This document shows positions 31,016-57,788 of a stretch of 64,000 nucleotides of DNA, in pieces. Numbering within the stretch: the first letter of the stretch is position 1; each line of letters opens with the position of its first letter. This DNA is from Rhizobacter sp. (GTDB lineage Bacteria > Pseudomonadota > Gammaproteobacteria > Burkholderiales > Burkholderiaceae_C). The stretch is taken from assembly GCA_023954175.1 (NCBI GenBank), contig JAMLIM010000001.1, forward strand, positions 123,901-187,900, read 5' to 3'. A model generated the notes under the pieces. The model worked only from the letters and a program-made list of their open reading frames with translations. It had not been told where the DNA came from and ran no database searches. Both the position numbers and the translations under genes were made by a program.

Positions 31016-31119
31016 TTCAGTTGCTCCTCCATGTTTCACGCGCAACCCGGCGCATGAAATCCTGTTGCGGGAACGCTTGCTCATGCGCCTCGAATGCGGA
31101 TCGCGAACGGCCGCGGATC

Positions 31120-31870
31120 ACAAGCGCTTGCGCTTGCGCATCACGCCTCGCTGCAACCGCCGGGGGGTTCTGCGCTTTGGCGTCGCGACGGGCGGTGCCT
31201 GGCAGGGGTTCGAGCGCTTTGGTGTTGCACCGGGCGATACCCGCCTTGGATTCGAGCGCTTTGGCGTCGCGCCAGGCGGTGCCCGCCGGGGGCTCATGGT
31301 TACGCGGTCGGCGCACAGCGCCGACTGCACTGCGGTTCTCGGCCAGGGGTCGCGTCGCAGAACTCGCTTCACTCACTGCGTTCGTTGCGCTCAAACAGTT
31401 GCGACGAGTCAGTTCACGAAGCGCGCTGCGCGCGCCGACCCCTGTCCTGCGATCCTCGTCGCTCCACAAATCGCCCCCGGCGGGCACCGCCTGCCGCGAC
31501 GGTTCTTCTCGTTTGTCGCGCACGACCGCGTTGCCTGCAAAGGCGCGGGCTTGAGCCACGGCGCGCCTACCGCCGCAGCGCCGAGTAGGTGAGCATTTTG
31601 GGGACACAAGCGGTCGGGGACCGCTGTGCCGCGAGCGGCCGGGCGTCCTCGCCCGGCGCGGCCTGCAAGGCCAGGGCTCGTGGCCGCGCGCGCAGCGCGC
31701 TTCGTGATCTGACCCGTCGCGACTGTCTGAACGCAGCGAACGCAGTGAGCGGTGAGCGAGCGACGATGGCCGCGAGACCGAGCATCGCAGGGCAGTCGGC
31801 GCGAAGCGCCGACCGCGGAGGTGAAGCGCCGTGGACTGCCCGGGCACGCCTTTGCCGCTCGAAACGACGC
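31120..31870 (-). repeat. Intercistronic repeat element, copy 1 (with tandem 42-bp units)
   Basis: This fills most of the 988-bp gap between the NfnAB stop (32004) and the ligase start (31015). Read with the plus strand it has four tandem 42-bp units (31128-31295), a core of about 215 bp (31296-31510) and a second module with hairpins (about 31600-31860). The core and second module recur at 41.2, 53.5 and 57.2 kb. A minus-strand ORF (31017-31991, 324 codons) runs through it and stops 1 bp before the ligase ATG. The 42-bp units translate as a 14-residue repeat of the type EPxAGTAxRDAKAL. Whether it is translated is unknown. Confidence 0.85.
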
Positions 31871-32003
31871 GCGCCAGCGAGGGCATGACAGAACGACGCG
31901 TCGAAGAAGAAACCGTCAACGTCGCAATTGGCAAACGACCCCGCGCAACAACTTCCGCGAAGACTTCGTTGTTCGAGCGCTTCGACCTCATGCCTGCGCC
32001 CCT

Positions 32004-34391
32004 TCAACGCGCAGCGGTTGCTGCTGCGTTGGCCTGCACTTCGGCATCCGCAGCCGCGTCCTGCGCGTCATCGAGAGCCGGCGGCCAATGCGCCTTGCCT
32101 TGCGTCAGCCAGGCGCCGATCGCGCGCGCCGCGCGTCGGCCGGCTGCCATCGCGAGGATCACGGTCGCGCCGCCGGTGACGATGTCGCCGCCGGCGAAGA
32201 CGCCCGGCAGATTGGTTGCCTGCGAGTCGTCGTCGGCCATGATGTAGCCGCGCTTGTCGAGCGCGAGGCCTTTCGTCGCCTGGCCGACGATCGGATTCGC
32301 CTTGGTACCGAGCGCGTAGATCACCGTGTCGCACGGCCACTCGACGAATTCGTCCTGCGGGATCGGCGTGCGCCGGCCGCGCGCGTCGGGCTCGCCGAGC
32401 ACCATCTTCTGCGCCTTCAGGCCGCGCACGTCGCCTTCGTCGTCGAGCAGCACCTCGACCGGTGCATGCAGGAAGGAGAACAGGATGCCCTCCTCGCGCG
32501 CATGGCGCAGCTCTTCGACGCGCGCCGGCGCCTCGGCCTCCGAGCGGCGGTAGACGCAGCGCACCTCGGCCGCGCCGAGGCGCTTGGCAACGCGCAGGCA
32601 GTCCATCGCGGTGTTGCCGGCGCCGATCACGACGACGCTGTCGCCGGCGCCGATCGGCGTGCCCTGGTACGGGAAGCGGTCGCCGCCCATCAGGTTCACA
32701 CGCGTCAGGAACTCGTTGGCCGAATAGACCTGCCCGGCGAACTCGCCCGGGATGCCGAGGAAGGCCGGCGCGCCGGCACCGGCGGCGACGAACACCGCGT
32801 CGTAGCCCATCGAATCGGTGAGCTGCGCGACGGAGAAGGTCTTGCCGATCACCTTGTTGGTCTCGAACTTCACGCCCTGGTCGCGCAGCTGCTGCACTTC
32901 GCGGTCGATGATGTCGCGTGGCAGGCGAAACGACGGTATGCCGTAGCGCAGCACGCCGCCGACGACGTGCAGCGCCTCGTAGACGGTGACGTCGGCGCCG
33001 AGCTTGACCAGATCCGCCGCGGCGGCCAGACCGCCCGGTCCGGAGCCGACGATCGCGACGCGGCCGAGCAGCGGCAGCGGCGGCGGCGCGACGACTTCGC
33101 TCGTCACCTTGCGCTCGGACTTCGGCTTGGCGTGGTCGCCGACGAAGCGCTCGAGCCTGCCGATCGCGACCGGCTCCATCTTTGCCTTGACGAGCACGCA
33201 CTGGATCTCGCACTGGCTTTCCTGCGGACAGACGCGGCCGCAGACGGACGGGAACGGGCTCGATTCGTGGATCGTGTCGACCGCGCCTTCGAGGTCGCGC
33301 AGCAGCAGGTGGCGGATGAAGCGCGGGATGTCGATGCGCACCGGGCAGCCTTCGATGCAGGTCGGGTTGATGCACTGGATGCAGCGCTCCGCCTCGCGCA
33401 GCGCGTCGGCCTGGCTGTAGCCGAGGTTGACCTCGTGAAAGCAGCCCGCGCGTTCGTGCGCGTCGCGCTCGGGCATCTTGACCTGCACCCGCTCGAGGGC
33501 GGAGTACTTCTTGTAGGTGCGCTTGCCCTGCTTGACGAGCAACTCTTCGAGACTGCAGACGTGCGCCTGGTCGTCGTTGGCCTGCTGTTCCTGGCGCTTG
33601 AAGCGCTTCTGGCGCGCGTGGAGTTCCTTGAAGTCGACCTGGTGGCCGTCGAAGTCGGGGCCGTCGACGCAGGCGAAGCGCACCTCACCGCCGACCGTGA
33701 CGCGGCACGAGCCGCACATGCCGGTGCCGTCGACCATGATCGTGTTGAGCGAGACCATCGTCTTCACGCCGAACGGGCGCGAGGTCTCGACGCACGCGTG
33801 CATCATCGGCATCGGGCCAATCGCGACGACGAGATCGGGCTTTTCCTCACGCTCGAGCACGTCCTGCAGCGCGGCGTTGACGAAACCCTTGCGCCCGACG
33901 CTGCCGTCGTCGGTGCACAGGATCAGCTCATCGGCCCAACGCCCTAGCTTGTCGGCCCAGAAGACGAGGTCCTTGTTGCGAAAGCCGACGATGCAGGTCG
34001 TGCGGTTGCCGGCCTCCTTGAACGCGCGCAACTGCGGGAAGATCGGCGCGACGCCCAGCCCCCCGCCGACGAGGACGACATGGCCGCCCTCACCGATCTT
34101 CTCGATGTGCTGCGGCAGGCCGAGCGGGCCGACGAAATCGGCGAACTCGTCGCCCTCGGCGAAGCTGTCGCGCATCTCACGCGTCGTCGCGCCGAGCGAC
34201 TGCACGACAACCGTGATCGTGCCGCGCTCGCGGTCGAAATCGGCCACCGTGAGCGGGATGCGCTCGCCGGCCTCGTCGAGCCGCAGCATGACGAAGTGGC
34301 CCGGCAGCGCGGCCTGCGCAACGTCCGGCGCATCGACCTCCCAGAGGAAGGTCTGATCGGAAAACTGTTCGCGACGAACGATGCGCACCAT
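32004..34391 (-). CDS. Fused NfnA-NfnB-type NAD(P)H:ferredoxin oxidoreductase
   Basis: A single 795-aa polypeptide. Residues 1-280 match NfnA/SudB: a ferredoxin-reductase-like FAD/NAD domain ending in a [2Fe-2S] site (DGTGMCGSC ... FACVDG, with the Asp ligand typical of NfnA). Residues about 300-780 match NfnB/GltD. They contain two [4Fe-4S] motifs (CIQCINPTCIEGCP and CGRVCPQESQCEIQC), the FAD site VAIVGSGPGGLAAAADL, and an NADPH site VVIGAGNTAMDCLRVAKRLG. Two-subunit NfnAB couples NADPH, NADH and ferredoxin by electron bifurcation. Beside hcrABC, a ferredoxin-dependent enzyme, it may supply or drain reduced ferredoxin. Confidence 0.88.
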   Translation of the reverse strand: MVRIVRREQFSDQTFLWEVDAPDVAQAALPGHFVMLRLDEAGERIPLTVADFDRERGTITVVVQSLGATTREMRDSFAEGDEFADFVGPLGLPQHIEKIGEGGHVVLVGGGLGVAPIFPQLRAFKEAGNRTTCIVGFRNKDLVFWADKLGRWADELILCTDDGSVGRKGFVNAALQDVLEREEKPDLVVAIGPMPMMHACVETSRPFGVKTMVSLNTIMVDGTGMCGSCRVTVGGEVRFACVDGPDFDGHQVDFKELHARQKRFKRQEQQANDDQAHVCSLEELLVKQGKRTYKKYSALERVQVKMPERDAHERAGCFHEVNLGYSQADALREAERCIQCINPTCIEGCPVRIDIPRFIRHLLLRDLEGAVDTIHESSPFPSVCGRVCPQESQCEIQCVLVKAKMEPVAIGRLERFVGDHAKPKSERKVTSEVVAPPPLPLLGRVAIVGSGPGGLAAAADLVKLGADVTVYEALHVVGGVLRYGIPSFRLPRDIIDREVQQLRDQGVKFETNKVIGKTFSVAQLTDSMGYDAVFVAAGAGAPAFLGIPGEFAGQVYSANEFLTRVNLMGGDRFPYQGTPIGAGDSVVVIGAGNTAMDCLRVAKRLGAAEVRCVYRRSEAEAPARVEELRHAREEGILFSFLHAPVEVLLDDEGDVRGLKAQKMVLGEPDARGRRTPIPQDEFVEWPCDTVIYALGTKANPIVGQATKGLALDKRGYIMADDDSQATNLPGVFAGGDIVTGGATVILAMAAGRRAARAIGAWLTQGKAHWPPALDDAQDAAADAEVQANAAATAAR

Positions 34392-34408
34392 CGGCTGGCC
34401 CTCCTGCT

Positions 34409-35395
34409 CTACGTTCCGGCCTGCGCCAGCTCGCGCAACAACCGCTGCACGAGCGCCGCTGCCACCTGACGCCGGTAGTTCGACGGCGTGACCGTGCTGC
34501 GCATCGGGCTGACCTGCTTCTGCACGAGCTTGCCGACGCGCGTGACGAGCGCTTCGTCCACCACCTCACCGGCCAACGCATCGGTGCCGGCGAGCAGCAG
34601 CGGGTGCGAATTGGTGCCCGAGACGCCGACCCGCAGCGACACGACGCGCCCGTCCTTCGACGCGAGCGCGACCGCGACCGCGGCGAGCGGAAAGTCCATC
34701 GCGCCGCGCACACGCGCCTTGTGGTAGCGGCACGCGGCACCTGCGGCGGGCGCCGGCACGCGCACGCGGGCGAGCAGCTCGTCGCGCTCGATCGTGAGGT
34801 GCGCGGCACCGTCGTCGCGGTACATCGCGTCGAGTGCGATCCAGCGCGCACCGCGCGCCGATTGCAGCTCGACCTCGGCGCCGAACGCGAGCAGCACCGG
34901 CGCGAGGTCGCCGCTGAACGCCGCATGGCAACGATGACCTTCGGGTGCGACATGGCAGGTGTCGCCGCCGCGCTTGAGGCAATACTTGTTCGCCGCGCGC
35001 CACCATTCGCTCTGGTTGTAGAACACGCAGCGCGTGTCCTGGCACAGGTTGCCGCCGAGTGTTGCCACGGTGCGGTGACCCGGCCCTGCGGCCGAGCGCG
35101 CCGCTTCGCGCAGCGCGGGCAAGCGTTCGGCGATCGATGCGTCGGTCGCGATCGTCGCCAGCGTCACGCCGGCGCCGAGCGTCAGGCCACCGTCGGCCGC
35201 CGGCTCGATCGCGGCGAAGCGCTGCAGGCCGGACATGTCGATCAGCACCTGCGGACGCTCGAGCCCGCGGCGCAGATTCGGCAACAGGTCGGTGCCGCCG
35301 GCGATGACCCGCGCGAGCGGTTCGGCGGCGAGCAGCGCAGCCGCCTCGGCGAGGCTCGCCGGGCGCTTCAACGCGAAATCGGAGAGTGCATGCAT
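34409..35395 (-). CDS. hcrB: 4-Hydroxybenzoyl-CoA reductase, FAD subunit (beta)
   Basis: HcrABC reductively removes the para-hydroxyl of 4-hydroxybenzoyl-CoA, giving benzoyl-CoA. The 328-aa beta subunit has the FAD-binding motifs VIAGGTDLLPNLRRG and TVATLGGNLCQDTRC. Unlike ordinary xanthine-oxidase-family FAD subunits, it carries the Cys-rich insertion (LCQDTRC, KYCLKRGGDTCH, GHRC) that binds the extra [4Fe-4S] cluster unique to this enzyme. Gene order C-A-B in transcription direction is compact. Spacing to hcrA is 17 bp. Confidence 0.94.
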   Translation of the reverse strand: MHALSDFALKRPASLAEAAALLAAEPLARVIAGGTDLLPNLRRGLERPQVLIDMSGLQRFAAIEPAADGGLTLGAGVTLATIATDASIAERLPALREAARSAAGPGHRTVATLGGNLCQDTRCVFYNQSEWWRAANKYCLKRGGDTCHVAPEGHRCHAAFSGDLAPVLLAFGAEVELQSARGARWIALDAMYRDDGAAHLTIERDELLARVRVPAPAAGAACRYHKARVRGAMDFPLAAVAVALASKDGRVVSLRVGVSGTNSHPLLLAGTDALAGEVVDEALVTRVGKLVQKQVSPMRSTVTPSNYRRQVAAALVQRLLRELAQAGT

Positions 35396-35412
35396 CGTGT
35401 GTTCAGGCCTGT

Positions 35413-37794: not shown

Positions 37795-38261
37795 GCGCGT
37801 GCCTCCGCCGCCGCCTGCACCGATTCGATGATCTTCACGTAGCCGGTGCAGCGGCACAGGTTGCCCGACAGCGCCTCGCGTATCTCGGTCTCGCTCGGAT
37901 CGCTCTCGCGACGCAGCAGTGCCTCGGCCGCCATCACCATGCCGGGCGTGCAGAAGCCGCACTGGGTGCCGAGCTTCTCGTGGAAGGCCTGCTGCAGCGC
38001 GCTCATGCGGCCGCCCTCGACCAGACCCTCGATCGTCTCGATGCGCCGGCCTTCGACGCTCGCCGCGAGCGTGATGCACGACAAGCGCGGCTCGCCGTCG
38101 ACGAGCACGGTGCAGGCGCCGCATTCGCCGCCGTCGCAGCCCTGCTTGGTGCCGGTCAACGCAAGCTTGTTGCGCAGCACTTCGAGCAGCAGCGCGCTGT
38201 CCGTCGCGGCGAGGTCGTGGTCGCGGCCGTTGACGTTCAGGCAGAGCAGTCGTTTGGACAT
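37791..38261 (-). CDS. hcrC: 4-Hydroxybenzoyl-CoA reductase, 2Fe-2S subunit (gamma)
   Basis: A 156-aa protein with two [2Fe-2S] clusters. The plant-type site is CDGGECGACTVLVDG...C (about residues 40-62) and the second, C-terminal site is CGFCTPGMVM ... CRCTGY. This is the standard small subunit of xanthine-oxidase-family enzymes. It begins 1 bp after the padJ stop and overlaps hcrA, so the pad and hcr genes are one transcription unit here. It relays electrons to the molybdenum subunit. Confidence 0.94.
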   Translation of the reverse strand: MSKRLLCLNVNGRDHDLAATDSALLLEVLRNKLALTGTKQGCDGGECGACTVLVDGEPRLSCITLAASVEGRRIETIEGLVEGGRMSALQQAFHEKLGTQCGFCTPGMVMAAEALLRRESDPSETEIREALSGNLCRCTGYVKIIESVQAAAEARA

Positions 38262-38262
38262 T

Positions 38263-39606: not shown

Positions 39607-39629
39607 GGGCCTGTCCTTTCGATGCCGGC

Positions 39630-40472: not shown

Positions 40473-41134
40473 GTCGTCCCCTCTTCCTCTTTCGCACCGT
40501 CCCACAGGTAGTGCATGTTCGGCCCGGTGCCGAGCTCTTCGTGCATCAGGAAGCTCTGGTTGGCGGCGACCAGTTGCGAGACGTTGCTCTCGGGGTCGTC
40601 GCTGTCGCCGAAGGTGAGCGCCTGCGCGATGCAGGAGTTGACGCAGGCGGGCGTCGCCTCGGGGTCGATGCCGGGCTTGAGCCCTTTCTCGAGCCCGGCG
40701 TCGATGCGGTCGACGCAGAAGGTGCACTTGGTGGCGACGTTGAGGCGCGAATCGTCGCGCCGCTGCGTCTCGTGCTCGCTCGGCTCACCGTAGGCAAAGC
40801 TCGCACGCGAGGTCTTGTAGCGCGCCTGGTAGGGGCAGGCGACGGCACAGTACGCGCAGCCGATGCACAGGTCGTAGTCGATCGTGACGATGCCGTCAGC
40901 GCGCTTCTTGGTGGCCGTCGTCGGGCAGACCTCCATGCAGGGCGGCTCGTCGCAATGCTGGCAGCCGGTCGGCACGAAGACGCGCTGCACGTTCGGATAC
41001 TCGCCAAACTCCATGTCGAGCACGCGCCGCCACTGCACGTCCGGCGGCGTCGCATTCGTGTGCTTGCACGACGCCGTGCACGTCTGGCACCCGACGCAAC
41101 GGCGCAGGTCGGCGACCATGGCCCATTTCGTCAT
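40469..41134 (-). CDS. padC: Phenylacetyl-CoA:acceptor oxidoreductase, iron-sulfur subunit
   Basis: A 221-aa DmsB/NrfC-like ferredoxin subunit with four [4Fe-4S] motifs: CVGCQTCTASC, CQHCDEPPCMEVCP, CIGCAYCAVACP and CTFCVDRI...CVNSC. It carries electrons from PadB to PadD. The ATG at 41134 has GGAG about 8 bp upstream and overlaps, as ATGA, the end of the repeat-spanning ORF; a longer frame to 41179 lacks a binding site. A repeat element separates it from padB, unlike the compact order of other pad clusters. Confidence 0.9.
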   Translation of the reverse strand: MTKWAMVADLRRCVGCQTCTASCKHTNATPPDVQWRRVLDMEFGEYPNVQRVFVPTGCQHCDEPPCMEVCPTTATKKRADGIVTIDYDLCIGCAYCAVACPYQARYKTSRASFAYGEPSEHETQRRDDSRLNVATKCTFCVDRIDAGLEKGLKPGIDPEATPACVNSCIAQALTFGDSDDPESNVSQLVAANQSFLMHEELGTGPNMHYLWDGAKEEEGTT

Positions 41135-41199
41135 GTCGTGCGCTCCGTTGCCCCAAGCGAAACCCGCGCCGAATGACATGAGTCAGCTACCGGCTTGCA

Positions 41200-41880
41200 A
41201 GGCTCTATCGCTGTTCGCGAGATTCTGTTTTTCCTGAGCGCTTTGGCGTCGCGCCAGGCGGTGCCCGCCAGGGGCTCATGGTTGCGCGGTCGGCGCACAG
41301 CGCCGACTGCACTGCGGTTCTCGGCCAGGGGTCGCGTCGCAGAACTCGCTTCACTCACTTCGTTCGTTGCGCTCAAACAGTTGCGACGAGTCAGTCTACG
41401 AAGCGCGCTGCGCGCGCCGACCCCTGTCCTGCGATCCTCGTCGCTCCACAAATCGCCCCCGGCGGGCACCACCTGCCGCGACGGTTCTTCTCTTGTGTGG
41501 AGCAGAACAAATGCACCAGCAAAGGCGTGCCCGGGCAGGCCACGGCGCGCCTGCGCAGCGCCGAGCAGGTGAGCAGGGACACAAGCGGTCCGGGGGACCG
41601 CTTGTGCCTTGCGAACGGCCGGGCGTCCTCGCCCGGCGCGGCCTGCAAGGCCAGGGCTTGCAGCCGCGCGCGCAAGCGCGCTTCGTGAACTGACTCGCCG
41701 CCACTGTCTGAGCGCAGCGAGTTCGGCGGCGGGCTGCAAGACCGAGCATCGCAGGGCAGTCGGCGCAAAGCGCCGACCGCGGAGGTGAAGCGCCGTGGAC
41801 TGCCCGGGCGCGCCTTTGCCGCGCCGAACTTCGCGCGCAGCATTGCCACGCGAACGTCCGCGCAATCCATCACGGCCGCG
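41200..41880 (-). repeat. Intercistronic repeat element, copy 2 (between padB and padC)
   Basis: It fills the 784-bp gap between the padB stop (41919) and the padC start (41134). It has one 42-bp unit (41236-41277), the core of about 215 bp (41278-41492), and the second module (about 41575-41820). The second module contains a perfect hairpin ACAAGCGGTCC-GGG-GGACCGCTTGT (41581-41605). An ORF of 263 codons (41131-41922, minus) overlaps the padB stop as ATGA and the padC start as ATGA, so it exactly bridges the two genes. Core sequence is nearly identical to copies 1, 3 and 4. Confidence 0.85.
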
Positions 41881-41918
41881 CGTCGGCGGCGACCGGAAAG
41901 AGCGAAAAGCAAGAGCGC

Positions 41919-44639
41919 TCATCCCCTCCTCCGTATCGCGACACGCACGATGTCCGCACTCGACCCTGTCGCGTCGGTCAGGTCCATCGACATCGTTGCG
42001 AGCTTGTTCAGGCTCGGCACGCCGAAGTCCTTCGCCAGAGGCGTCTTCCAGTGGTTGAACTGGCCGATCAGCAGCAGCGTGTCCGGGCGGATGCCCTGGC
42101 GCACGACGGCCTTGCCTTTGACGCGCTTGCTCGGGGTCGAGATCTCGATGTCGTCGCCATCGGCGATGCCGAGCTTCTCGGCGGCGCTGGTGTTGATGAT
42201 CACGCCGCGATGGCCGCTGACGTTGCCCGCCACCTCGTGGATCATCTGCACGCCGGCGTTACCGCCCCAGGCGTACTGCATGCTGCGCGCGGTGAGCAGC
42301 CAGAACGGGAAGTCTTCGCCCTTGCCGCCGGCCTGCACGACGGCGTCCTGCCAGAGGCCGGGGAAGTCCTTGTAGACCGGCAGCGCCTGGTACTCGGCCA
42401 TCTGCTTGTCCCACCAGTGCATGTCGTGCTCGTGCAGGCGGCGGCCGAGCTCGGCGCCGACGCGCTTCAGGCGCTCCTGGTAGGGCATCTCGAAGCGCAG
42501 CCCGCGCTCGACCATCGTCGGGTAGAGGTACCAGTCGATGCGCGGGAAGGGCTTCGTCGCCAGGCCCTTCTCCTTCCACCAGTCGAGGCCGTGCGCCTCG
42601 GCGCCATCGGTCAGCTCGGCGCTCGCGGCGCGGCAGACCGCGCCCCAGATCGCCTCGCGGTCGTGCACCTGATCGACGGGCAGCGAGAAGTCGCCGTGCT
42701 CGCTCTTCAATGGCACGCCGCCCGCGCCGCGGTTGATCGCGGCGTTGTACTTCTCGAGGATGCCGCTGCGGCGTGCGAGCTCGGTCGCGATGTCGGTGAA
42801 GTCGCGCGCGTCGCCGCGCATCTCGACCACCGGCTGGCGCAGCGCGAAGCCCTGCTGCTCCCAGAACTGCTCGACGTACTTGGTGCCGCCGATGCGGATC
42901 AGCTGCAGGCCTTCGAGATCGGTCGCGTCGGGCAGCAGGATGTCGGCGAAATGGTTCGTCTCGTCGAGCGTGTAGGTCATCGCGACGACGAACGGGAAGC
43001 GCGCGATCTTCTCGCCGAGCGCGTCGGTGTCCCAGAACGAGATTGCGGGATTGGTGCGGTAGACGAACCAGACGTCAGGGAAGGTCACCGTCGGCAGGCC
43101 CTTGGGCGTCTTGTCGAGGAACATCCACGAGAAATGCGTCGGACCGAGCGCCTGCGCCCAGGCGCCGTTGCCGGTGAGCGGCACCATCGACTTGTAGGCG
43201 TTGCGGATGTTCGGCCGCGGCGACCAGGTCGCCTTGTCGGTCGGGTTCATCGGGTAGTTCATGAAGCCGTCGGGGCCGCGCTGTGCGCTCTGCAGCCGCT
43301 CGGCCATCGGCCGCACCAGGCGCACCGTCGTGCCGAGCGTGCCGCCGGGCACTTCGAGCGCGCCGACCAGCGTTGCGAGCAGCGTGCGCGCCCAGCAGCA
43401 TTCGTAGCCGCCCCAGCCGTTGTTGACGGTCTTGCCGAGCGTCACCGCGACCGGCCGGTAGGGCAGCGTCACGCCCTCGATCTCTATCGTCTGGCCGACG
43501 CAGGCGTGCTGCACGTATTCCTGCGCGATCTTGCGCATCGTCGCCGCCGGCACGTCGCAGATGCCTTCGGCCCATTCGGGCGAATAGGGGGCGAGATGGG
43601 CGACGAGCTTGTCGAAGCCGGTCTCGCCTTCGAGCATGCCGTCGCCGAGCACCTCTTCGTCGGCGCCGATCTCGACCGCATCGACGACCGCGCGGCCTTC
43701 GAGCCGCTCATCGATGTCGGGGGTGTCGTGCACCACCGCCTGGCCCGAGCGCAGGTCCCACACGAGGGGTTTCTTCGTCGCGCGGTCGCGCAGGTAGTAG
43801 CCGTTGGGCCCGACGAGGTAGGGTGAGCCGGTGAGCCGCTTGAGGTGCGGCAGGTCGAGCCGCTCGCGCGGCATCTCGTGCAGCATCACGTGCATCAGCG
43901 CGTAGAGGAAGGCGGGGTCGGTCTTCGGCTTGATCGGCACCCATTGCGCCGAGCACGCGCCGGTGACCGACAGGTGCGGCTCGACCTGCACCCGCTTCAT
44001 GCCGCGGATGCGCGCGTTCGAGTGGCGCCAGACGCCGACGACGCCGCCCGAGGCTTCGATGTTGGAGCCGCAGGAGATCAGGTAGCGCGTCGTCGGCGTG
44101 TCGGCGGCGACGATGAACGCGCGGTGCCAGAACTCGCCGTAGAGGTGCTCGGAGTGGTCGCACTTGACGCCCTGCCCCGAGCCGAACCCCATGTCCACCG
44201 CGCCCCACGCGGCGAGGAACGCGGGGAAGGTGCCCATGTAGAACTGCGGCGTGCCGCCGCCGCCGAAGCTCGCCGCGAGGCGCGGGTAGCCCGAGGCGTC
44301 GAGCAGCCCCTCTTCGCGCAGCTTGGTCAGGCGCTCGCCGATGAGGTCGAACGCTTCGTCCCACGAGATCGGCACGAAACCCGGATCCTCGTCGCGCCCC
44401 TTCTTCGGGTTGGTGCGCTTCATCGGCGACAGCACCCGGTTCGGGTTGTAGGTCTTTTGCACCAGACCGTAGGCCTTGACGCAGACCTTGCCGCCGCCGG
44501 GGTGGATCTTCTCGGCGCAGAAGTTCGGCTCGACTTCGACCGCGACGCCGTCCTCGACCTTGACCGTCAACAGGTCCGGCCCGGCGACGCACTGGTAGCA
44601 GTAGGTCGGCACGCGCTTGACGGTGCTCGCAGCTTTCAT
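41919..44639 (-). CDS. padB: Phenylacetyl-CoA:acceptor oxidoreductase, molybdopterin subunit
   Basis: A 906-aa DMSO-reductase-family molybdoenzyme subunit that oxidises phenylacetyl-CoA to phenylglyoxylate with loss of CoA. The N-terminal [4Fe-4S] region is CYQCVAG ... NFCAEKIHPGGGKVCVKA (about residues 14-60). Molybdopterin-binding segments follow (SWDEAFDLIGERL, SFGGGGTPQFYMG, SCGSNIEASGGV) and a C-terminal dinucleotide-binding domain (GHRGVIINTSAAEKLGIADGD). It has no Tat-like signal at the chosen start. Next in transcription order come a repeat and padCD; the phenylglyoxylate dehydrogenase genes padEFGHI are not in the window. Confidence 0.9.
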   Translation of the reverse strand: MKAASTVKRVPTYCYQCVAGPDLLTVKVEDGVAVEVEPNFCAEKIHPGGGKVCVKAYGLVQKTYNPNRVLSPMKRTNPKKGRDEDPGFVPISWDEAFDLIGERLTKLREEGLLDASGYPRLAASFGGGGTPQFYMGTFPAFLAAWGAVDMGFGSGQGVKCDHSEHLYGEFWHRAFIVAADTPTTRYLISCGSNIEASGGVVGVWRHSNARIRGMKRVQVEPHLSVTGACSAQWVPIKPKTDPAFLYALMHVMLHEMPRERLDLPHLKRLTGSPYLVGPNGYYLRDRATKKPLVWDLRSGQAVVHDTPDIDERLEGRAVVDAVEIGADEEVLGDGMLEGETGFDKLVAHLAPYSPEWAEGICDVPAATMRKIAQEYVQHACVGQTIEIEGVTLPYRPVAVTLGKTVNNGWGGYECCWARTLLATLVGALEVPGGTLGTTVRLVRPMAERLQSAQRGPDGFMNYPMNPTDKATWSPRPNIRNAYKSMVPLTGNGAWAQALGPTHFSWMFLDKTPKGLPTVTFPDVWFVYRTNPAISFWDTDALGEKIARFPFVVAMTYTLDETNHFADILLPDATDLEGLQLIRIGGTKYVEQFWEQQGFALRQPVVEMRGDARDFTDIATELARRSGILEKYNAAINRGAGGVPLKSEHGDFSLPVDQVHDREAIWGAVCRAASAELTDGAEAHGLDWWKEKGLATKPFPRIDWYLYPTMVERGLRFEMPYQERLKRVGAELGRRLHEHDMHWWDKQMAEYQALPVYKDFPGLWQDAVVQAGGKGEDFPFWLLTARSMQYAWGGNAGVQMIHEVAGNVSGHRGVIINTSAAEKLGIADGDDIEISTPSKRVKGKAVVRQGIRPDTLLLIGQFNHWKTPLAKDFGVPSLNKLATMSMDLTDATGSSADIVRVAIRRRG

Positions 44640-50256: not shown

Positions 50257-50390
50257 TTCCGCAGCGTCCGCGGTGCACAAGTTGACGATACGGACAAGCC
50301 CCGGCCGCGCCGCTGCCAACGGGCGCCGGTGCGCGCAGCGTGCGCCGACGCCCGGCGGCAAGGGCGCTGTCCAGCCGCGACGCGCAGCAC

Positions 50391-50406: not shown

Positions 50407-50492
50407 ACCACAAGGCTGCAGCCGGGCGCGATGCGGCAACTCGCCCAGAACACGAGAACGCCCCGATCCAAGGACACCCAAGGAGACACAGC

Positions 50493-52328
50493 ATGAAATT
50501 TCCCGTACCTCACGACGTGAAGGCCAAGACCATTCCGGGCACCGAAGGCTGGGAGCGGATGTATCCGTACCAGTACCAGTTCGTCAGCGACGACCCGGTG
50601 CGCAACGCCTACGAGAAGGAGACCTTCTGGTTCTACGACGGCCTGCACTATCCCGAGCCGCTGTATCCCTTCGACACCATCTGGGACGAGGCCTGGTTCC
50701 TCGCCCTGTCGCAGTACAACAACCGCATCTTCATGGTGCCGCCGGTGCGCGGCGTCGATCACCGCATGATCAACGGCTATGTCTACATCTCGCCGGTGCC
50801 GGTGAAGAATCCGGAAGAGATCGGCAGCCGCGTGCCGCATTTCATGGAGCGCGCCGGCCACTACTACAAGAACTGGGACGCGCTCGAAGCCAAGTGGAAG
50901 GTGAAGATGGAAGCCACCATCCGCGAACTCGAGGCGATCGAGATCCCGAAGCTGGCCGACATGGAAGACATTTCCGTGGTCATGGATGCGCTCGGCGAGT
51001 CGAAGGGCTACCACCTGCTGAAGAACTACGATGACCTGATCAACCTCGGCATCAAGTGCTGGCAGTACCACTTCGAGTTCCTGAACCTCGGCTACGCGGC
51101 CTACGTGTTCTTCCTCGATTTCGCGCAAAAGCTCTTCCCAACCATTCCGGCGCAGCGCGTGACGCAGATGATCTCGGGCATCGACGTCATCATGTACCAG
51201 CCGGACGAGGAGCTGAAGAAGCTCGCCCGGCGCGCGATCGAGCTCGGCGTCGAAGAGGTGCTGACCTTCAGCCCCGAATGGTCGGTGGTCGAGGAAGCGC
51301 TGAAGAAGACGCCCAAGGGCGTCGAGTGGCTCACCTCGCTCTCCCTCGCGAAGGAGCCCTGGTTCAACGTCTCGACCGGCACCGGCTGGTTCCATCACGA
51401 CCGTTCGTGGAACGACCAGATGAACGTGCCGCTGTCGGGCATCGCGACCTACATCGGCAAGTTGAAGCAAGGCGTCTCGATCGATCGCCCGACGGCGAAG
51501 GTGATTGCCGAGCGTGACCGCATCACGGCCGAATACCGCGCGCTGATCGACAAGCCCGAGGATCTGAAGCAGTTCGACGAGCTGCTCGGCTGCGCCAAGA
51601 CCGTCTTCCCCTACGTCGAGAACCATCTGTTCTACGTCGAGCACTGGTTCCACTCGGTGTTCTGGAACAAGATGCGCGAGGTCGCCGCGATCCTGAAGGA
51701 GCACGGCGTCATCAAGGACGTCGAGGACGTCTGGCTGCTGCGCCGCGACGAGATCAAGTCCGCGCTGTGGGACATCGTCACCGCCTGGGCCACCGGCGTC
51801 ACGCCGCGCGGCACCATGACCTGGCCGGCCGAGATCGAATGGCGCAAGGGCGTGATGGCGAAGTTCAAGGAATGGAGCCCGCCGCCCGCGATCGGCACCG
51901 CGCCGGAGGTGATCCAGGAGCCGTTCACGATCGTGCTCTGGGGCGTGACCAACAAGTCGCTCGCCGACTGGGCCGCGGTGCAGGAAGTGGGCGACCCCGA
52001 CACCATCACCGAGCTCAAGGGCTTCGCCGGCAGCCCCGGCATCGTCGAAGGCAAGGCGCGGGTGTGCAAGACCGTCGCCGAAGTCGGGGAGCTCCTGGAG
52101 GGCGAGATCCTCGTCGCGCCGACGACCTCGCCGTCGTGGGCGCCGGCATTCGCCAAGATCGGCGCCTGCATCACCGATGTCGGCGGCGTCATGAGCCACG
52201 CCGCGATCGTCTGCCGCGAATACGGCATGCCCGCGGTGGTCGGCACCGGCATGGCGACCAAGATCATCAAGACCGGCATGCAGATTCGCGTCGACGGCTC
52301 GACCGGTGCGGTGAGCATCACGCGCTGA
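50493..52328 (+). CDS. ppsA: Phenylphosphate synthase subunit A (phosphotransfer subunit)
   Basis: Phenylphosphate synthase phosphorylates phenol with ATP as the first step of anaerobic phenol degradation. The 611-aa subunit resembles the central part of PEP synthase. The C-terminal phosphohistidine domain (about residues 525-611) has [23 protein letters not shown], in which the His is phosphorylated. The N-terminal 400 residues are specific to this group and likely bind phenol. Size (about 70 kDa) agrees with the Thauera aromatica subunit. The ATG at 50493 follows AAGGAGA by 6-7 bp. The stimulating subunit PpsC was not found in the window. Confidence 0.9.
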
Positions 52329-52338
52329 CGCGACGACG

Positions 52339-53463
52339 ATGAGCGCACTGATGCACGCGGTGGACGTTGCGGCACGGCCCGGGACCTCGGGCCTGCCACT
52401 CGTCACCTGGTTCGAGGACTGCCGCAAGGACTCGGTGGCGCTCGTCGGTGGCAAGTGCTCTTCGCTCGGCGAACTCATCAACGCCGGCGTGCGCGTGCCG
52501 CCCGGCTTCGCACTCACGACCGAAGGCTTTCGGCGCTTCATGGCCGACGCCGGCATCGTGCGCGAGGTGCGCGCGCTGCTCGCCGGAATCGACATGAAGG
52601 ATCTCGATGCGCTGGAGGCCGCGAGCGAGCGCATCCGGGCAACGATAGAGGCGCACGACTTCTCCGAGCAGATGGAGGACGAGATCGCCGAGTGCTACCG
52701 CAAACTGTCGCTGCGCTGCGGCCTGCCGGCGGCGCCGGTCGCGGTGCGATCGAGCGCGACCGCCGAGGACCTCGCCGACGCCAGCTTTGCCGGGCAGCAG
52801 GACACCTATCTCTGGGTTCGCGGCATCGACGAAGTGCTGCACCACATGCGGCGCTGCATCTCGAGCCTGTACACCGGGCGCGCGATCGACTACCGCGCCA
52901 AGCACCATTTCGACGACGAACAACTCGCGATCAGCGTCGGCGTGCAGAAGATGGCCAACGCCTACACCGCGGGCGTGATGTTCACGATCCACCCCGCCAA
53001 CGGCGACCGCTCGGTGATCGTGATCGACTCGAACTTCGGCTTCGGCGAATCGGTCGTCTCGGGCGAGGTGACACCGGATCACTTCGTCGTCAACAAGATC
53101 ACGCTCGACATCATCGACCGCACGATTTCGCAAAAGCTCGTCTGCGTCACCGTCGACCGCAAGACGCAGACCTCATGCACGACCGACGTGCCACTCGAGC
53201 GCCAGCGCGTGCAATCGTTGATCGACGACGAGATCACCGAGCTCGCCTGGATGGGCAAGCAGATCGAGAAGCACTACGGCCGGCCGATGGACATCGAGTG
53301 GGCGGTCGACAAGGACCTGCCGGCGGGCGGCAACATCTTCATCCTCCAAGCGCGCCCCGAGACGGTGTGGAGCGCACGCGCCAAGGCACCGGTCGTCAAG
53401 ACGGCCGGCTCGGCGATGGACTACATCCTGTCCGGCATATTGGCCGGCAAGAAGGTGAGCTGA
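52339..53463 (+). CDS. ppsB: Phenylphosphate synthase subunit B (ATP-grasp subunit)
   Basis: A 374-aa protein (about 41 kDa) equal to the N-terminal nucleotide-binding part of PEP synthase. It has GGKCSSLGELINAGVRVPPGFALT, VAVRSSATAEDLADASFAGQQDTYL and PMDIEWAVDKDL...IFILQARPETVWS. It transfers a diphosphoryl group from ATP to the His of PpsA. It lies 10 bp downstream of ppsA, is co-transcribed, and has the split-gene arrangement typical of phenylphosphate synthase. A repeat element follows it. Confidence 0.9.
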   Translation: MSALMHAVDVAARPGTSGLPLVTWFEDCRKDSVALVGGKCSSLGELINAGVRVPPGFALTTEGFRRFMADAGIVREVRALLAGIDMKDLDALEAASERIRATIEAHDFSEQMEDEIAECYRKLSLRCGLPAAPVAVRSSATAEDLADASFAGQQDTYLWVRGIDEVLHHMRRCISSLYTGRAIDYRAKHHFDDEQLAISVGVQKMANAYTAGVMFTIHPANGDRSVIVIDSNFGFGESVVSGEVTPDHFVVNKITLDIIDRTISQKLVCVTVDRKTQTSCTTDVPLERQRVQSLIDDEITELAWMGKQIEKHYGRPMDIEWAVDKDLPAGGNIFILQARPETVWSARAKAPVVKTAGSAMDYILSGILAGKKVS

Positions 53464-53539
53464 GGTGGACGCGGCCCAGCCTCAACTGGTAGTTCACGCG
53501 CCATTGCGGGAGCTACGAGCGGGATATGGCCCCGATCAA

Positions 53540-54085
53540 GCGGTCGGTGATCGGCGCGGCAAAGGCGCGCCCGGGCAGTCCACGGCGCTTCACCTCCGCG
53601 GTCGGCGCTGTGCGCCGACTGCCCTGCGATGCTCGGTCTCGCGGCCACGTCGCTCAACTCACTGCGCTCACTGCGTTCGCTCCGTTCAGACAATCGCGAC
53701 GGGTCAGATCACGAAGCGCGCTGCGCGCGCGGCCACGAGCCCTGTGCTTCTCGGCGCTGCGCAGGCGCGCCGTGGCCTGCCCGAGCACGCCTTTGCTGTT
53801 GCATTCGCTCTTCGCAACGAAAGAGAAGAACCGTCGCGCCAGGCGGTACCCGCCGGGGGCGATTTGTGGAGCGACGAGGATCGCAGGACAGGGGTCGGCG
53901 CGCGCAGCACGCTTCGTGAACTGACTCGTCGCAACTGTTTGAGCGCAACGAACGAAGTGAGTGAAGCGAGTTCTGCGACGCGACCCCTGGCCGAGTACCG
54001 CAGTGCAGTCGGCGCTGTGCGCCGACCGCGCAACCATGAGCCCCTGGCGGGTACCGCCTGGCGCGACGCGCCTGCACCCGTTGCT
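53540..54085 (+). repeat. Intercistronic repeat element, copy 3 (between ppsB and ubiD-like gene)
   Basis: It occupies most of the 764-bp gap 53464-54227. In the direction of transcription it reads second module (about 53558-53770), core (53824-54037) and one 42-bp unit (54038-54079), the same order as in copies 1 and 2 on the minus strand. An ORF of 228 codons (53465-54151, GTG start) begins 1 bp after the ppsB stop. Here the ORF ends 76 bp before the next gene. The remaining 54086-54227 segment carries a GGAG site for the UbiD gene and nothing else recognised. Confidence 0.85.
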
Positions 54086-54227
54086 GCCTCGCGCGACGTG
54101 CATGCACGTATTCCATTTCACATCATCCGCCACCAGCACCCTCTCGAGTAGCACGCAACGCGAGCCACACCACCCCTCCCACCGTCAACGACGACAACCC
54201 CTCCCCCTGAACCCGAACGGAGTACAC

Positions 54228-55739
54228 ATGAACGCACGCAATGAAATCCGCGCCATCGACGACCTGCGCAGCTATATCGACGCGCTGGAAGCGCATGGGC
54301 AACTGCACCGCGTGAAGACGGAAGTCGACTGGAAGTACGAGCTGTGCCACATCTCCAAGGTCAACGAGGAGCAGAAAGGCCCGGCGTTGATCTACGAGAA
54401 CGTCAAGGGCTACGACATCCCCGTCTTCACGAGCGCATTCACGACGCCGCAGCGCCTCGCGATCGCGCTCGAGCAGGATCCGTCGCTGACGATGAGCCAG
54501 TTGTCGAAGAAGTGGATGGAGCTGACGACCAAGCAGATGATCAAGCCGGAATTCGTCGACAACCCGTCGGTGATGGAAAACCAGATCACCGGCAAGGACA
54601 TCGACATCGAGAAGTTCCCGTCGCCCTGGTTCTATCCCGACGACGGCGGGCGCTTCTTCGTCACCTCCGGCTACCTCGTGACGCAGGACCCGGACACCGG
54701 CTGGACCAACCTCGGCACCTATCGCTCGCAGGTGCTCGGCAAGGACATCCTCGGATCGCAGATCATCAAGGGCAAGCATGGCGACATGCACATGAAGAAG
54801 TACGCCGAGCGCGGTGAGCTGATGCCCGCGGCGGCCGTCGTCGGCTGCGACCCGGTGCTGTTCCTCGCCGCATCGACGCTCGTCAGCGCGCAGATGGACG
54901 AGTACGACATCGCCGGTTCACTGCGCGGCCGGCCGGTGCCGGTGTTCAAGTCGGACGTCACCGGCCTCACGCTGCCGGCCAACGCCGAGATCATCGCCGA
55001 GGGCTTCATCGACCCGAACGAGTTGATGGAGGAAGGCCCGTTCGGCGAATACACCGGTTACTACTCGGGCAACAAGGGCAAGGACTATCCGAAGCCGGTG
55101 CTGCGCATCAAGCGCATCCTGCACCGCAACAACCCGGTCATGTGGTCGACGACGGTGGGCAAGCCGATCAACGACATCCACATGATCCAGTCGCTCAACC
55201 GCACCGCGACGCTGTGGTACGACCTCGAGACGATGAAGGTGCCCGGCATCCAGAGCGTGTACATCCCGCCCGAGGCGTGCGGCCGCTTCTGGGTCATCGT
55301 CTCGGTCAAGCAGATGTACCCGGGGCACTCGAACCACGTCGGCAACGCCGTCATCGCGAGCACGACCGGCCACTACGGCGTCAAGGGCGTGATCACCGTC
55401 GACCACGACATCGAGGCCGACGACTGGGATCGCATCTGGTGGGCGCTGGCAACGCGCTTCGACCCGAAGCGCTCGGCGCAGATCATCGACCGCGGCCGCT
55501 CGACGCCGCTCGACCCCGGCCTGCCGATCGACGCGCGCGACATCACGAGCCGCATCATCCTCGACGCCTGTACGCCCTACGAGTGGGCGAACAAGCCGAA
55601 CGAGATCTTCATGGACCGCCAGGTGCTGCAGAAGGTGTCGGACCGCTGGAAGGAATACGGCTTCGCAGGCGCGAGCCCGGTGGCCGGGATGATCAATCGC
55701 CTGACGCGGCCCGAGGCGCCCAAGAAGGCGACGAAGTAG
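54228..55739 (+). CDS. UbiD-family (de)carboxylase, probable phenylphosphate carboxylase subunit
   Basis: A 503-aa UbiD-family protein that uses prenylated FMN. It has the family signature EEGPFGEYTGYYSGN, with the conserved Glu region, and NDIHMIQSLNRTATLWYDLE. In Thauera aromatica, phenylphosphate carboxylase contains two UbiD-like subunits plus two small ones and makes 4-hydroxybenzoate. Here a single UbiD gene follows ppsAB and the small subunits are not in the window, so complex composition may differ or other genes lie elsewhere. UbiX, needed for the cofactor, is encoded at 63389. Confidence 0.85.
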   Translation: MNARNEIRAIDDLRSYIDALEAHGQLHRVKTEVDWKYELCHISKVNEEQKGPALIYENVKGYDIPVFTSAFTTPQRLAIALEQDPSLTMSQLSKKWMELTTKQMIKPEFVDNPSVMENQITGKDIDIEKFPSPWFYPDDGGRFFVTSGYLVTQDPDTGWTNLGTYRSQVLGKDILGSQIIKGKHGDMHMKKYAERGELMPAAAVVGCDPVLFLAASTLVSAQMDEYDIAGSLRGRPVPVFKSDVTGLTLPANAEIIAEGFIDPNELMEEGPFGEYTGYYSGNKGKDYPKPVLRIKRILHRNNPVMWSTTVGKPINDIHMIQSLNRTATLWYDLETMKVPGIQSVYIPPEACGRFWVIVSVKQMYPGHSNHVGNAVIASTTGHYGVKGVITVDHDIEADDWDRIWWALATRFDPKRSAQIIDRGRSTPLDPGLPIDARDITSRIILDACTPYEWANKPNEIFMDRQVLQKVSDRWKEYGFAGASPVAGMINRLTRPEAPKKATK

Positions 55740-55802
55740 CGCGCAGACCGTGTCGCGCATCGCTGAGCACTGCGGCAGGGCGCCGGGCCGAGCGCCGGGC
55801 CG

Positions 55803-55860
55803 CCCCCAAGCCGGCCCGGGCCCCAGGGCCACGAAGGGGCCCCTTCGTGGACCTTGGGGG
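55803..55860. repeat. Nested perfect palindrome between the UbiD and UPF0261 genes
   Basis: An outer stem CCCCCAAG (55803-55810) / CTTGGGGG (55853-55860) encloses a perfect 22-bp palindrome CCACGAAGGGG/CCCCTTCGTGG (55829-55850). It would form a very stable RNA hairpin or cruciform in the 153-bp intergenic gap. There is no T-tract. It could limit readthrough or protect the upstream mRNA. Confidence 0.7.
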
Positions 55861-55892
55861 CCGGCCGGCGCACGCGCCGGACGAGGGGCACC

Positions 55893-57158
55893 ATGACCAA
55901 GGGCATCGTCATCATCTGCAACCTCGACACCCGCGGTGAGGACATCGTGTTCGTCAAGGACCTGATCGCCTCGCGCGGCCACCAGCCGATCCTGCTCGAC
56001 TTCAGCATGGAGGAGCCGCCGCCCTTCCCCGGCGACATCCGCACCGAGGATGTCGCCGCGCGCGGCGGCCTGGCGATCGAGGTGGTGCGCGAGAAGTACC
56101 GCAGCGACCGCGACGCGGCGACGCAAAACCAGATCCGCGGCGCGTCGGCCATCGTCGCCGAGTTGATGGCTGCGGGACGCGTGCACGGCGTGATCGGCAT
56201 CGGCGGCGGCACGGCGACGCTGGTCGCGACGTCGATCATGAAGACGCTGCCGTTCGGCCTGCCCAAGCTGATGGCCTCGCCGATGGCGGCGCATCCCTCC
56301 TACATCGACAAGTACGTCGGCACGAAGGACATCACGATGCACCACACGGTGCTCGACATCGTGAAGATGAACCCGCTGCTGAAGGCACAGATCACGAACG
56401 CGGTCGGCGCGATCTGCGGCATGGTCGAAATGACGCAGGGCACCGACTTCCACTTCGACAAGCCGTGCGTCGCGATCTCGTCGTTCGGCTTCGGCGAGAT
56501 GGCGGTGCAGACTGCGATCGGCATGCTCGAGGACGCCGGCTTCACGCCGATCGTCTGCCACGCGCAAGGCAAGGGCGACCGCGCGATGGAGGAGATGATC
56601 CGCGACGGCGCGTTCCAGGGCGCGGTCGATCTGTGCATCGGCGGCGTGATGGAGCACCTGTTCAAAGGCAACCGCGATCCCGGCCCGGATCGCCTGAAGG
56701 CCGCCGCCGCGGCCGGCATCCCGACCGTTCTCGCGCCGTGCGGACTCGACATCCTCTCGTACGGCGGGCGCGCCGACATGCTCGACAAGACCAAGGACCG
56801 CGTGCAATACGTGCAGGACGCGCTGCGCGTGCAGGTGCGCACCACCGCCGACGAATTGCGCCAGGCCGCGGACGTGATCGCCGAACGATTGAACGCCGCG
56901 CGTGGCGAGTGGACTTTCCTCGTTCCGCTCAAGGGCTGGTCCTCGCTCGATCGCGAAGGCCGGCCGATCTACGACCCGCAGGCCGACGCCGCCTTCGTCG
57001 AACGCCTCGAGGCGAAGCTCGACCACCCCGCGCGCGTGAAGAAGGTCGACCTGCACCTCTACACACCCGAATTCGCGCGCGTCGCGGTCGATGAGTTCGT
57101 ACGGTTATTCGAGGCTTCGAAGAAGCCCGCTCGTGCCGCTGCTGGGCAGGCCGCATGA
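55893..57158 (+). CDS. UPF0261 / Tm-1-like ATP-binding protein
   Basis: A 421-aa protein of the UPF0261/Tm-1-like family, named after the tomato viral resistance protein. It has an N-terminal ATP-binding lobe (IVIICNLDTRGEDIVFVKDL, GVIGIGGGTATLVATSIM, GLPKLMASPMAAHPSYIDKYVG) and a C-terminal TIM-barrel-like half. Bacterial members are scattered among catabolic operons and their reaction is not established. Location right after a UbiD carboxylase suggests a role in the phenol pathway or in handling a CoA or phosphate ester. Its stop overlaps an ATG (ATGA) that begins the ORF through repeat copy 4. Confidence 0.85.
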   Translation: MTKGIVIICNLDTRGEDIVFVKDLIASRGHQPILLDFSMEEPPPFPGDIRTEDVAARGGLAIEVVREKYRSDRDAATQNQIRGASAIVAELMAAGRVHGVIGIGGGTATLVATSIMKTLPFGLPKLMASPMAAHPSYIDKYVGTKDITMHHTVLDIVKMNPLLKAQITNAVGAICGMVEMTQGTDFHFDKPCVAISSFGFGEMAVQTAIGMLEDAGFTPIVCHAQGKGDRAMEEMIRDGAFQGAVDLCIGGVMEHLFKGNRDPGPDRLKAAAAAGIPTVLAPCGLDILSYGGRADMLDKTKDRVQYVQDALRVQVRTTADELRQAADVIAERLNAARGEWTFLVPLKGWSSLDREGRPIYDPQADAAFVERLEAKLDHPARVKKVDLHLYTPEFARVAVDEFVRLFEASKKPARAAAGQAA

Positions 57159-57229
57159 AGCGTCGCGCCGAACTCACACGTTCGCGGCGGAGTGAAGTGG
57201 GACGGCGCTGGTTGCGGGTGAGTGTCGCG

Positions 57230-57690
57230 CGCGAAGAGTGGTGCGGCAAAGGCGTGCCCCGGCAGGCCTTTGCAGGCAACCCGGTGGTGCGCGACGAACG
57301 AGAAGAACCGTCGCGGCAGGCGGTGCCCGCCGGGGGCGATTTGCGGAGCGACGAGGATCGCAGGACAGGGGTCGGCGCGCGCAGCGCGCTTCGTAGACTG
57401 ACTCGTCGCAACTGTCTGAGCGCAACGAACGAAGTGAGTGAAGCGAGTTCTGCGACGCGACCCCTGTCCGAGAACCGCAGTGCAGTCGGCGCTGTGCGCC
57501 GACCGCGTAACCATGAGCCCCCGGCGGGTACCGCCTGGCGCGACGCGCATGCGCTGGACCCCACCGCAGGTGCCGCCCGGCGCGACGCCAAAGCGATGAA
57601 GCCAGCAGCGGTTACCACCTGGCGCAACGCCAAAGAGCCGAAACCCACAGCGCGCACGGGCCGCCGCGACGCGCGATCAATGCGATCACC
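57230..57690 (+). repeat. Intercistronic repeat element, copy 4 (with tandem 42-bp units)
   Basis: It lies in the 630-bp gap between the UPF0261 gene and the oxidoreductase gene. It contains the core of about 215 bp (57300-57514) followed by four 42-bp units (57515-57682); the second module is largely absent. The ORF 57155-57787 (210 codons) overlaps the upstream stop as ATGA and ends one base before the ATG at 57789. Units translate as divergent 14-residue repeats (EPPAGTAWRDAHAL, DPTAGAARRDAKAM, and so on). Confidence 0.85.
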
Positions 57691-57788
57691 GCGCCCATCG
57701 CGGCCCGCATCGCAAACGCGCGAGCGACTCTTCGACCCGCATCGCTGCGTACCTCGTGTCCCGCGCCAAGCGCGGTGGAGCAATTGAT

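Follow-up and report, generated by a model that had tools for sequence, protein, structure and literature searches.

Results

Four copies of a palindromic repeat in the window

The DNA examined here is a 64,000-nt stretch of a Rhizobacter sp. genome (contig JAMLIM010000001.1; the whole stretch is called the window below), in which four near-identical copies of a palindromic repeat lie between genes of the anaerobic aromatic clusters. Its key feature, beyond anything in a preliminary description made from the letters alone, is a through-frame, that is, an open reading frame that crosses the element, and we consider it likely that this dispersed, probably mobile Burkholderiaceae repeat can live in operons as it is translated through.

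A repeat search (repeats of at least 30 nt, seed 14) placed the four cores at 31254-31522 and 41236-41504 on the minus strand and at 53813-54075 and 57290-57552 on the plus strand, where the preliminary description had seen its four segments; copies 1 and 2 are 96% identical in the core, copies 3 and 4 95%, and the two pairs 94-96% identical to one another. No further copy was listed in the window, as had been stated, and in 4/4 copies the strand of the element is that of its neighbour genes. A second module, which is the core inverted (72-85% complementary), precedes the core in the mRNA direction in copies 1-3 and is mostly absent from copy 4, and units of 40-42 nt follow 3' of the core in copies 1, 2 and 4. 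The preliminary observation is confirmed; the loss in copy 4 had been noted, and copy 3 has no units in the repeat listing.

Copy 1 has a through-frame of 324 codons (31017-31991, minus) that opens with an ATG 12 nt past the upstream stop and closes with a TGA 1 nt before the next ATG (31015). Within it lie the second module, the putative hairpin partner (31668-31817), the 269-nt core, three 42-nt units at or past the 3' end of the core (31172-31295) and a tail, GAGGAGCAACTGA (31017-31029), in which a Shine-Dalgarno-like GGAG and the stop codon stand before a single A, after which the next gene starts with its ATG. The through-frame of copy 2 (41131-41922, minus; 263 codons) overlaps both neighbours by ATGA and encloses a second module at 41666-41781 and a single unit of the 40-42-nt type at 41238-41277. 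That of copy 3 (53465-54151, plus; 228 codons; second module 53597-53763, core delimited within it at 53813-54069) starts with a GTG 1 nt past the upstream stop and ends 76 nt short of the downstream ATG (54228), at a junction where relatives likewise have a gap of 45-47 nt. Copy 4 has a frame of 210 codons (57155-57787, plus) with an ATGA overlap upstream and TGATATG downstream (ATG at 57789); its core is delimited within the frame at 57288-57555, its units of the 42-nt type lie 3' of the core at 57557-57638 (matching stretches 57557-57595 and 57523-57638), and its tail, GTGGAGCAATTGA (57775-57787), again combines a Shine-Dalgarno-like sequence with the stop. By Pfam, the neighbours are an FAD/4Fe-4S oxidoreductase and an AMP-binding enzyme (copy 1), a molybdopterin oxidoreductase and a 4Fe-4S protein (copy 2), PPDK_N and UbiD proteins (copy 3) and UPF0261 and POR/DUF6537 proteins (copy 4).

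Sequence-level coupling of the through-frame to both neighbouring genes

In the genome that holds the window (3.9 Mb in 148 contigs, 94.7% complete; the source genome below), BLAST found 19 cores that are whole and one, at the end of contig C94, that is partial; C60, C70 and C146 each end in a fragment. In this search 40 of 145 candidate windows were scored. A 20-base pattern, allowed up to three mismatches, matched 38 sites, 36 of them within loci found by BLAST; the remaining two (C31, C145) are taken as chance, and the reversed pattern, used as a control, gave 2 sites. Eighteen of the 19 whole copies lie in sense orientation between two genes of the element's own strand, with 587-1095 nt from upstream stop to downstream start; in the remaining copy, C88, the upstream gene is divergent and the frame is broken. 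Genes were called with a small dicodon gene finder of our own.

A second lineage is represented by isolate TGS_PRO28 (G060, with contigs up to 2.1 Mb, whose coordinates match those of G229 in our survey of the family). Two loci there, both coupled at the right end and one with ATGA at both ends, led to some 40 copies of a different subfamily. Those used here are the best 40 of 314 candidate windows, so that more copies may be present: 34 are sense and 2 antisense between co-directional genes, and of the other four a neighbour is divergent in 2 and convergent in 2. Both antisense copies (L179, L187) still have a coupled frame in the direction of the genes.

Each of the 18 co-directional copies of the source genome has one, and only one, sense frame without stops across the stop-rich stretch of the core. 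In most of them this frame spans the linkers as well, with its start codon on or close to the stop of the preceding gene (ATGA, TGANGTG) and its stop codon at the start of the following one (ATGA, TGANATG), giving through-frames of ~190-360 codons. We scored a copy as coupled if one and the same frame began between -25 and +35 relative to the upstream stop and closed at most 20 nt from the downstream start, and compared the counts with simulations in which the element was kept, the linkers were shuffled and 0-2 random bases were added on each side. These covered 18 of the 19 whole copies of the source genome (C88 excluded) and 36 of the 40 in TGS_PRO28 (the four in other contexts excluded). 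With downstream starts set by homology or by reading of the N-terminus, 12/18 copies of the source genome were coupled at both ends versus 0.75 expected (P ~1e-14); in TGS_PRO28 the figures were 32/36 versus 9.6 (P ~4e-18). The 12 rest on starts confirmed in same-genus relatives at w31k, w41k, w53k, C138, C94, C97 and C91 and on N-terminus reading or the gene caller at the other 11 junctions; the 32 include two copies (L194, L195) whose downstream start was corrected, the BLAST match having ended too early, and without this correction the count is 30/36. When every downstream start was instead set mechanically, as the first in-frame ATG or GTG past the element, coupling was found in 6/18 (0.74 expected, P 2e-5) and 30/36 (9.6 expected, P 6e-15).

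Two further controls gave lower values. A frameshift of 1-2 nt in the same copies reduced coupling from 12 to 3.1 of 18 in the source genome and from 30 to 9.3 of the 34 sense copies in TGS_PRO28, and element-free same-strand gaps of at least 150 nt were coupled in 3/10 and 0/8 cases. The pieces at contig ends of the source genome, with starts judged by eye, were coupled in 3/3 cases at three-prime ends (the C94 end, C70, C146) and in 1/1 at a five-prime end (C60, start 1 nt past the upstream stop).

The spacing at the right-hand end differs between the two lineages. It is +1 nt (TGANATG) in 7 and -4 nt in 2 of the 12 coupled copies of the source genome, and -4 nt in 17/32 coupled copies of TGS_PRO28; an exact -4 nt at both ends is found in 2/12 and 10/32, respectively. 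The optimum for translational coupling is given as -4 to +3 nt (PMC12548453). Several copies of the source genome, the C70 piece and one copy of the relative G004 share a tail of ~45 similar nt, TTTCATGCGTCGCGGGTCGCGC..GGTGGAGCAACTGAN, that adjoins the start codon. The tail sequence GGAGCAACTGAN, directly before ATG, is found in the source genome, G004 and G113 and is altered in G122 and TGS_PRO28; the counterparts of the tail read GCGGAGCAACTGAC in G113, GGCGGAGCCACTGAC in G122 and GGGGAGCTGAC in TGS_PRO28. Left ends are often TGANRTGAAR. From these features we infer that the ends of the element may carry a built-in start, Shine-Dalgarno sequence and stop.

Host operons and empty junctions

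The preliminary description had all copies within aromatic clusters, which holds inside the window; genome-wide the host operons are functionally unrelated and the aromatic clusters are only some of them. Judging from N- and C-termini, we take pairs of neighbours to be otsA/otsB, dppB/dppC, gspD/gspE, gspI/gspJ and hyfE/hyfF, and others presumably include a resistance-nodulation-division (RND) pump with its outer-membrane factor, phosphonate genes and a sensor with its regulator. Copies tend to cluster regionally, with two in the gsp cluster on C72, two in the phosphonate cluster on C56 (both names again assumed from the termini) and four in the aromatic region. In one of the C56 copies (C56a, L060), before a phnW-like gene, tail-like sequence occurs twice and the frame is open through both. 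At the C60 contig end (L069) a stretch of ~60 nt is tandemly repeated just ahead of the second module.

A search of the whole genome and of related genomes, with presence or absence scored at the same junctions, had been proposed in the preliminary description; besides the 19 whole copies, it gave empty junctions in same-genus relatives at 7 of the 8 junctions searched among the 18. The gaps there run from -4 to 86 nt, with one of 223. At hyfE/hyfF the gap is -1 in G003 and G004 (TGATG) and 9 in G001; at dppB/dppC the genes overlap by ATGA in G004 and are 223 nt apart in G001; the C97 junction has gaps of 13 and 22, that of copy 2 gaps of 5, 8 and 86, that of copy 3 gaps of 45 and 47, that of copy 1 a gap of 57 in G003 (a projected gap of -20 in G001, from a short alignment, was left unused) and that of C94 a gap of 76. 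So the elements appear to have been inserted into mostly short junctions, or to have been cleanly lost in the relatives. The C114 insertion recurs, by eye, at the corresponding junction of G003 (C406) and is coupled there as well.

The left side of the element in copy 1 looks like the native sequence of the empty G003 site, in spacer and start region, and in C97 and C94 the stretch beside the upstream gene is likewise similar to what relatives have there as spacer and start region. Copy 3 has a native-looking spacer with a Shine-Dalgarno sequence on the right of the element, and for this reason its frame may be free to stop short of the next start. Between the 18 copies of the source genome and the 36 of TGS_PRO28, only the hyfE/hyfF junction is held in common by close homologues, and it is occupied by different subfamilies in the two (C138, L059 in the former; L148, L207 in the latter); the junctions of C91 and L192 join related pairs of 33-35% identity.

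Copies in other genera

A scan of a collection of genomes from 84,980 species returned 39 loci, 38 under beta-proteobacterial titles and one titled only Proteobacteria; several of them are copies in G003, G004 and TGS_PRO28. Twelve are at convergent sites, nine are sense and nine antisense between co-directional genes, one is divergent and eight have one neighbour missing. A profile of the frame matches 39/200 genomes of the family at E 1e-6, and a stretch of 86 residues of the frame, searched against plasmid and phage collections, matched nothing there.

From other genera we took 40 loci in nine genomes, picked from a longer list by a protein match of the sense frame, a selection that favours open sense frames; seven without two usable same-strand neighbours were dropped, and 31 of the 33 tested are co-directional. 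Coupling was found in 13/19 sense copies versus 2.2 after a frameshift. Six of the 13 copies in G009 are at convergent sites, and of the other seven (two sense, five antisense) 5/7 were coupled versus 1.4 after a frameshift. Given coupling in TGS_PRO28, in the other genera and in G009, operon-internal coupling recurs, and the sense bias is strong in some lineages only. The preliminary description had judged the orientation in the window non-random, and in that it was right for the source genome (18/18 co-directional copies in sense) and for TGS_PRO28 (34 sense versus 2 antisense). Outside some lineages the strict rule fails by the refuting condition that the preliminary description had set: the eight co-directional copies of G194 are 3 sense and 5 antisense, those of G009 are 2 and 5, and the collection has as many of one kind as of the other, besides its 12 convergent sites.

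A different repeat in the window

Positions 55740-55892 hold a different GC-rich palindromic repeat of ~90-120 bp (arms 55810-55869), which occupies the 153-nt gap between the UbiD-like and UPF0261 genes and whose end adjoins the ATG. C83 has a copy with 88% identity, and shorter pieces occur elsewhere. This gap scores as coupled in the control set of element-free gaps, and sequence resembling the repeat, by eye, fills the 86-nt gap before the ATG at the copy 2 junction in G001. It may be akin to the beta-proteobacterial repeat BRE (PMC3110155).

Discussion

How the repeat might be tolerated in operons

Our explanation is that ribosomes translate through the repeat, which for this reason is tolerated in operons and leaves the neighbouring genes coupled. 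Ribosomes that end the upstream gene would reinitiate on the frame of the element and read it to its stop at the start codon of the next gene, where they would terminate and reinitiate once more, presumably aided in part of the copies by the Shine-Dalgarno-like GGAG of the tail (GGAGCAACTGAN, then ATG). Untranslated RNA invites Rho-dependent polarity (PMC12548453); crossing by ribosomes would keep translation and transcription coupled and would prevent such polarity along a structured RNA of roughly 0.5-1 kb. Insertion would take place at or beside start codons, as suggested by the native-looking spacer or start sequence that copy 1, C97 and C94 retain on the left-hand side and copy 3 on the right-hand side. 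Both the translation and the transposition of the element are inferred here from sequence. The preliminary description had listed coupling and a mobile element among its ideas for an intercistronic element, in line with our analysis.

It is tempting to go further and to see in the element a mobile translation adaptor that targets the start codons of operon genes, starts its own frame from the native initiation site and restores initiation at the displaced gene through its Shine-Dalgarno-stop tail. We put this forward tentatively and regard it as rather less likely than not to be right in full; were it true, the host operon would stay expressed and the ratio of the flanking genes could be tuned.

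Several observations weigh against translation through the element as the general explanation. The count of coupled copies in the source genome depends on the choice of start, 12 versus 6/18, since the frame of the downstream gene is often open into the tail of the element. Six copies there (w53k, C46, C91, C72b, C86, C127) and four in TGS_PRO28 (L176, L188, L189, L199) are uncoupled. The antisense copies in other genera are coupled in 4/12 cases versus 2.1 after a frameshift, hardly above the control, and many copies in relatives are at convergent genes, so that coupling is not general to all copies. Variants that would make a stop number 0 versus 1.7 expected in the core of the source genome, which is not significant, and 12 versus 9.7 expected in the reference frame of TGS_PRO28, where one-base gaps are common (161 in the alignment) and the copies accordingly differ in the frame they use; the variants alone are no proof of stop avoidance. 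Finally, no target-site duplication was proved: the same four letters stand at both ends in 7/10 TGS_PRO28 copies with an NTGA overlap at both ends, and these letters also form the codons.

Alternative explanations

One alternative is that the repeat is a cis-acting RNA element whose hairpins serve mRNA processing, stabilisation or attenuation, the orientation simply following from this. The sense RNA does have a very stable predicted fold (z -13.6 for copy 2 of the window, 20 shuffles; z -11.3 in TGS_PRO28, 100 shuffles), and among 15 TGS_PRO28 copies 32/180 predicted pairs are changed on both sides with pairing kept; the sense bias in the source genome and TGS_PRO28 fits as well. A mobile palindrome, however, predicts conserved hairpins equally, and the coupled frame is left unexplained by a function in the RNA. 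The host operons are unrelated in function, relatives have antisense copies and copies at convergent sites, and the two Rfam matches between 30000 and 59000 of the window at E up to 1 are weak and lie outside all four copies. We think this alternative unlikely. The RNA processing or attenuation suggested in the preliminary description is not needed: what marks the operon-internal copies is the coupled through-frame, which is present also in both antisense copies of TGS_PRO28.

It could also be argued that this is an ordinary repeat, similar to repetitive extragenic palindromes (REPs) or miniature inverted-repeat transposable elements (MITEs), with a through-frame that is a by-product of GC-rich, stop-poor sequence. 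The complementary strand of the core is indeed open in all three frames, the shuffles in TGS_PRO28 leave 9.6/36 copies coupled by chance, and stop-making variants are not rare there. The sense strand behaves differently, as two of its three frames have stops in the core in the 18 copies of the source genome, and coupling exceeds both the shuffled-linker and the frameshift controls, with mechanical starts included, which makes a mere by-product quite improbable.

That the copies are a true family of small-protein genes, amplified and placed in operons for their product, is a very improbable reading, in spite of frames of gene-like length with gene-like starts and stops. Variants show no excess at third codon positions, and synonymous changes are at chance level (16 versus 18.0 expected in the source genome, 109 versus 114.0 in TGS_PRO28). 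C91, C86 and C56a use a different reading frame over a portion of the second module that has more than one frame open, and in L179 and L187 it is the opposite strand that is coupled. Pfam has no family for the four window through-frames, and the sole NCBIfam match to them, at E 0.084, falls far below its cutoff. We conclude that structure is selected and peptide sequence is not, and that a continuous coupled frame is what is kept copy by copy.

The source genome is fragmented, and some of its 148 contigs end in the element, yet an artefact of assembling a repeat is hardly credible, given that each copy has its own linkers and neighbours, that the pattern is repeated in the long contigs of TGS_PRO28 and that the C114 insertion is found, by eye, at the same junction in G003.

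The ~190-360-codon frames call for a warning to annotators, as they are gene-like and show no selection on a protein. The natural copies, dozens in number and in some cases matched by an empty site in a relative, also offer a testbed for the protection that translation gives operons against polarity.

Comparison with known systems

The element shares features with several families of repeats. Like BRE, it is a dispersed GC-rich beta-proteobacterial repeat found at several loci between same-strand genes; BRE, compared here by description only, is ~90 bp, and no coupling is described in the section on it (PMC3110155). Like REP and GTAG palindromes it occurs in many copies, and the convergent-site copies of relatives recall REPs, which are 20-40 bp long (PMC3733652). 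Our element, unlike these, measures hundreds of bp, and a transposase search limited to the Y1 (RAYT, REP-associated tyrosine) type found no PF01797 match in the source genome, TGS_PRO28 or G004; matches are present in G001, G003 and G009. MITEs are characterised by terminal inverted repeats, a target-site duplication and a cognate transposase; the element has inverted arms, and a duplication at its ends was not proved.

The title of the paper on Chunjie, a MITE of Geobacter, is said to speak of insertion in an operon without disturbing operon structure. Chunjie is thus comparable as a repeat inserted in an operon; it is 178-235 bp long, disrupts one copy of a phosphate uptake operon according to a review, and is discussed in that review passage with no mention of a coupled frame (PMC10969869). 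The same review describes the Rickettsia palindromic elements, which are likewise palindromic repeats tolerated where they are translated, yet lie in frame within genes and have a conserved peptide, whereas the copies of the source genome are intergenic, have a separate frame and do not conserve their peptide (PMC10969869).

In the open-licence literature, searched at the level of listings, we recognised no description of this element. A similar principle is known from the mycobacterial interspersed repetitive units (MIRUs), which were reportedly described by Supply et al. in 1997. As summarised in a review, MIRUs appear mobile, insert at start codons and carry a frame of their own that is coupled to the gene behind it, an arrangement explained as insertion that hardly affects expression (PMC12548453). 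Compared by description, our element is alike in being dispersed and apparently mobile, in its coupled internal frame and in the frequent -4 nt coupling (ATGA) of TGS_PRO28; as to insertion at start codons, the empty sites put the element at the stop/start junction, native-looking sequence lies on its left in three copies and on its right in one, and no exact duplication was proved. It differs in size, with a 269-nt core, a total of roughly 0.5-1 kb and two large hairpin arms, as against the 46-101 bp given for MIRU repeats (PMC3914561). It differs also in its beta-proteobacterial hosts, which belong to another phylum, and in the commonest right-hand spacing of the source genome, which is +1 nt (7/12), in several copies behind a conserved Shine-Dalgarno-like tail. 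In view of its size and phylum we do not class it as a MIRU. The working principle is known from mycobacteria; its recurrence in two high-copy lineages, in elements of this length, is unexpected, and suggests that the constraint seen in MIRUs, a start-codon repeat whose own frame is coupled to genes, also governs several-fold larger elements in an unrelated phylum. The principle is that of the MIRUs, in a far larger element of another phylum.

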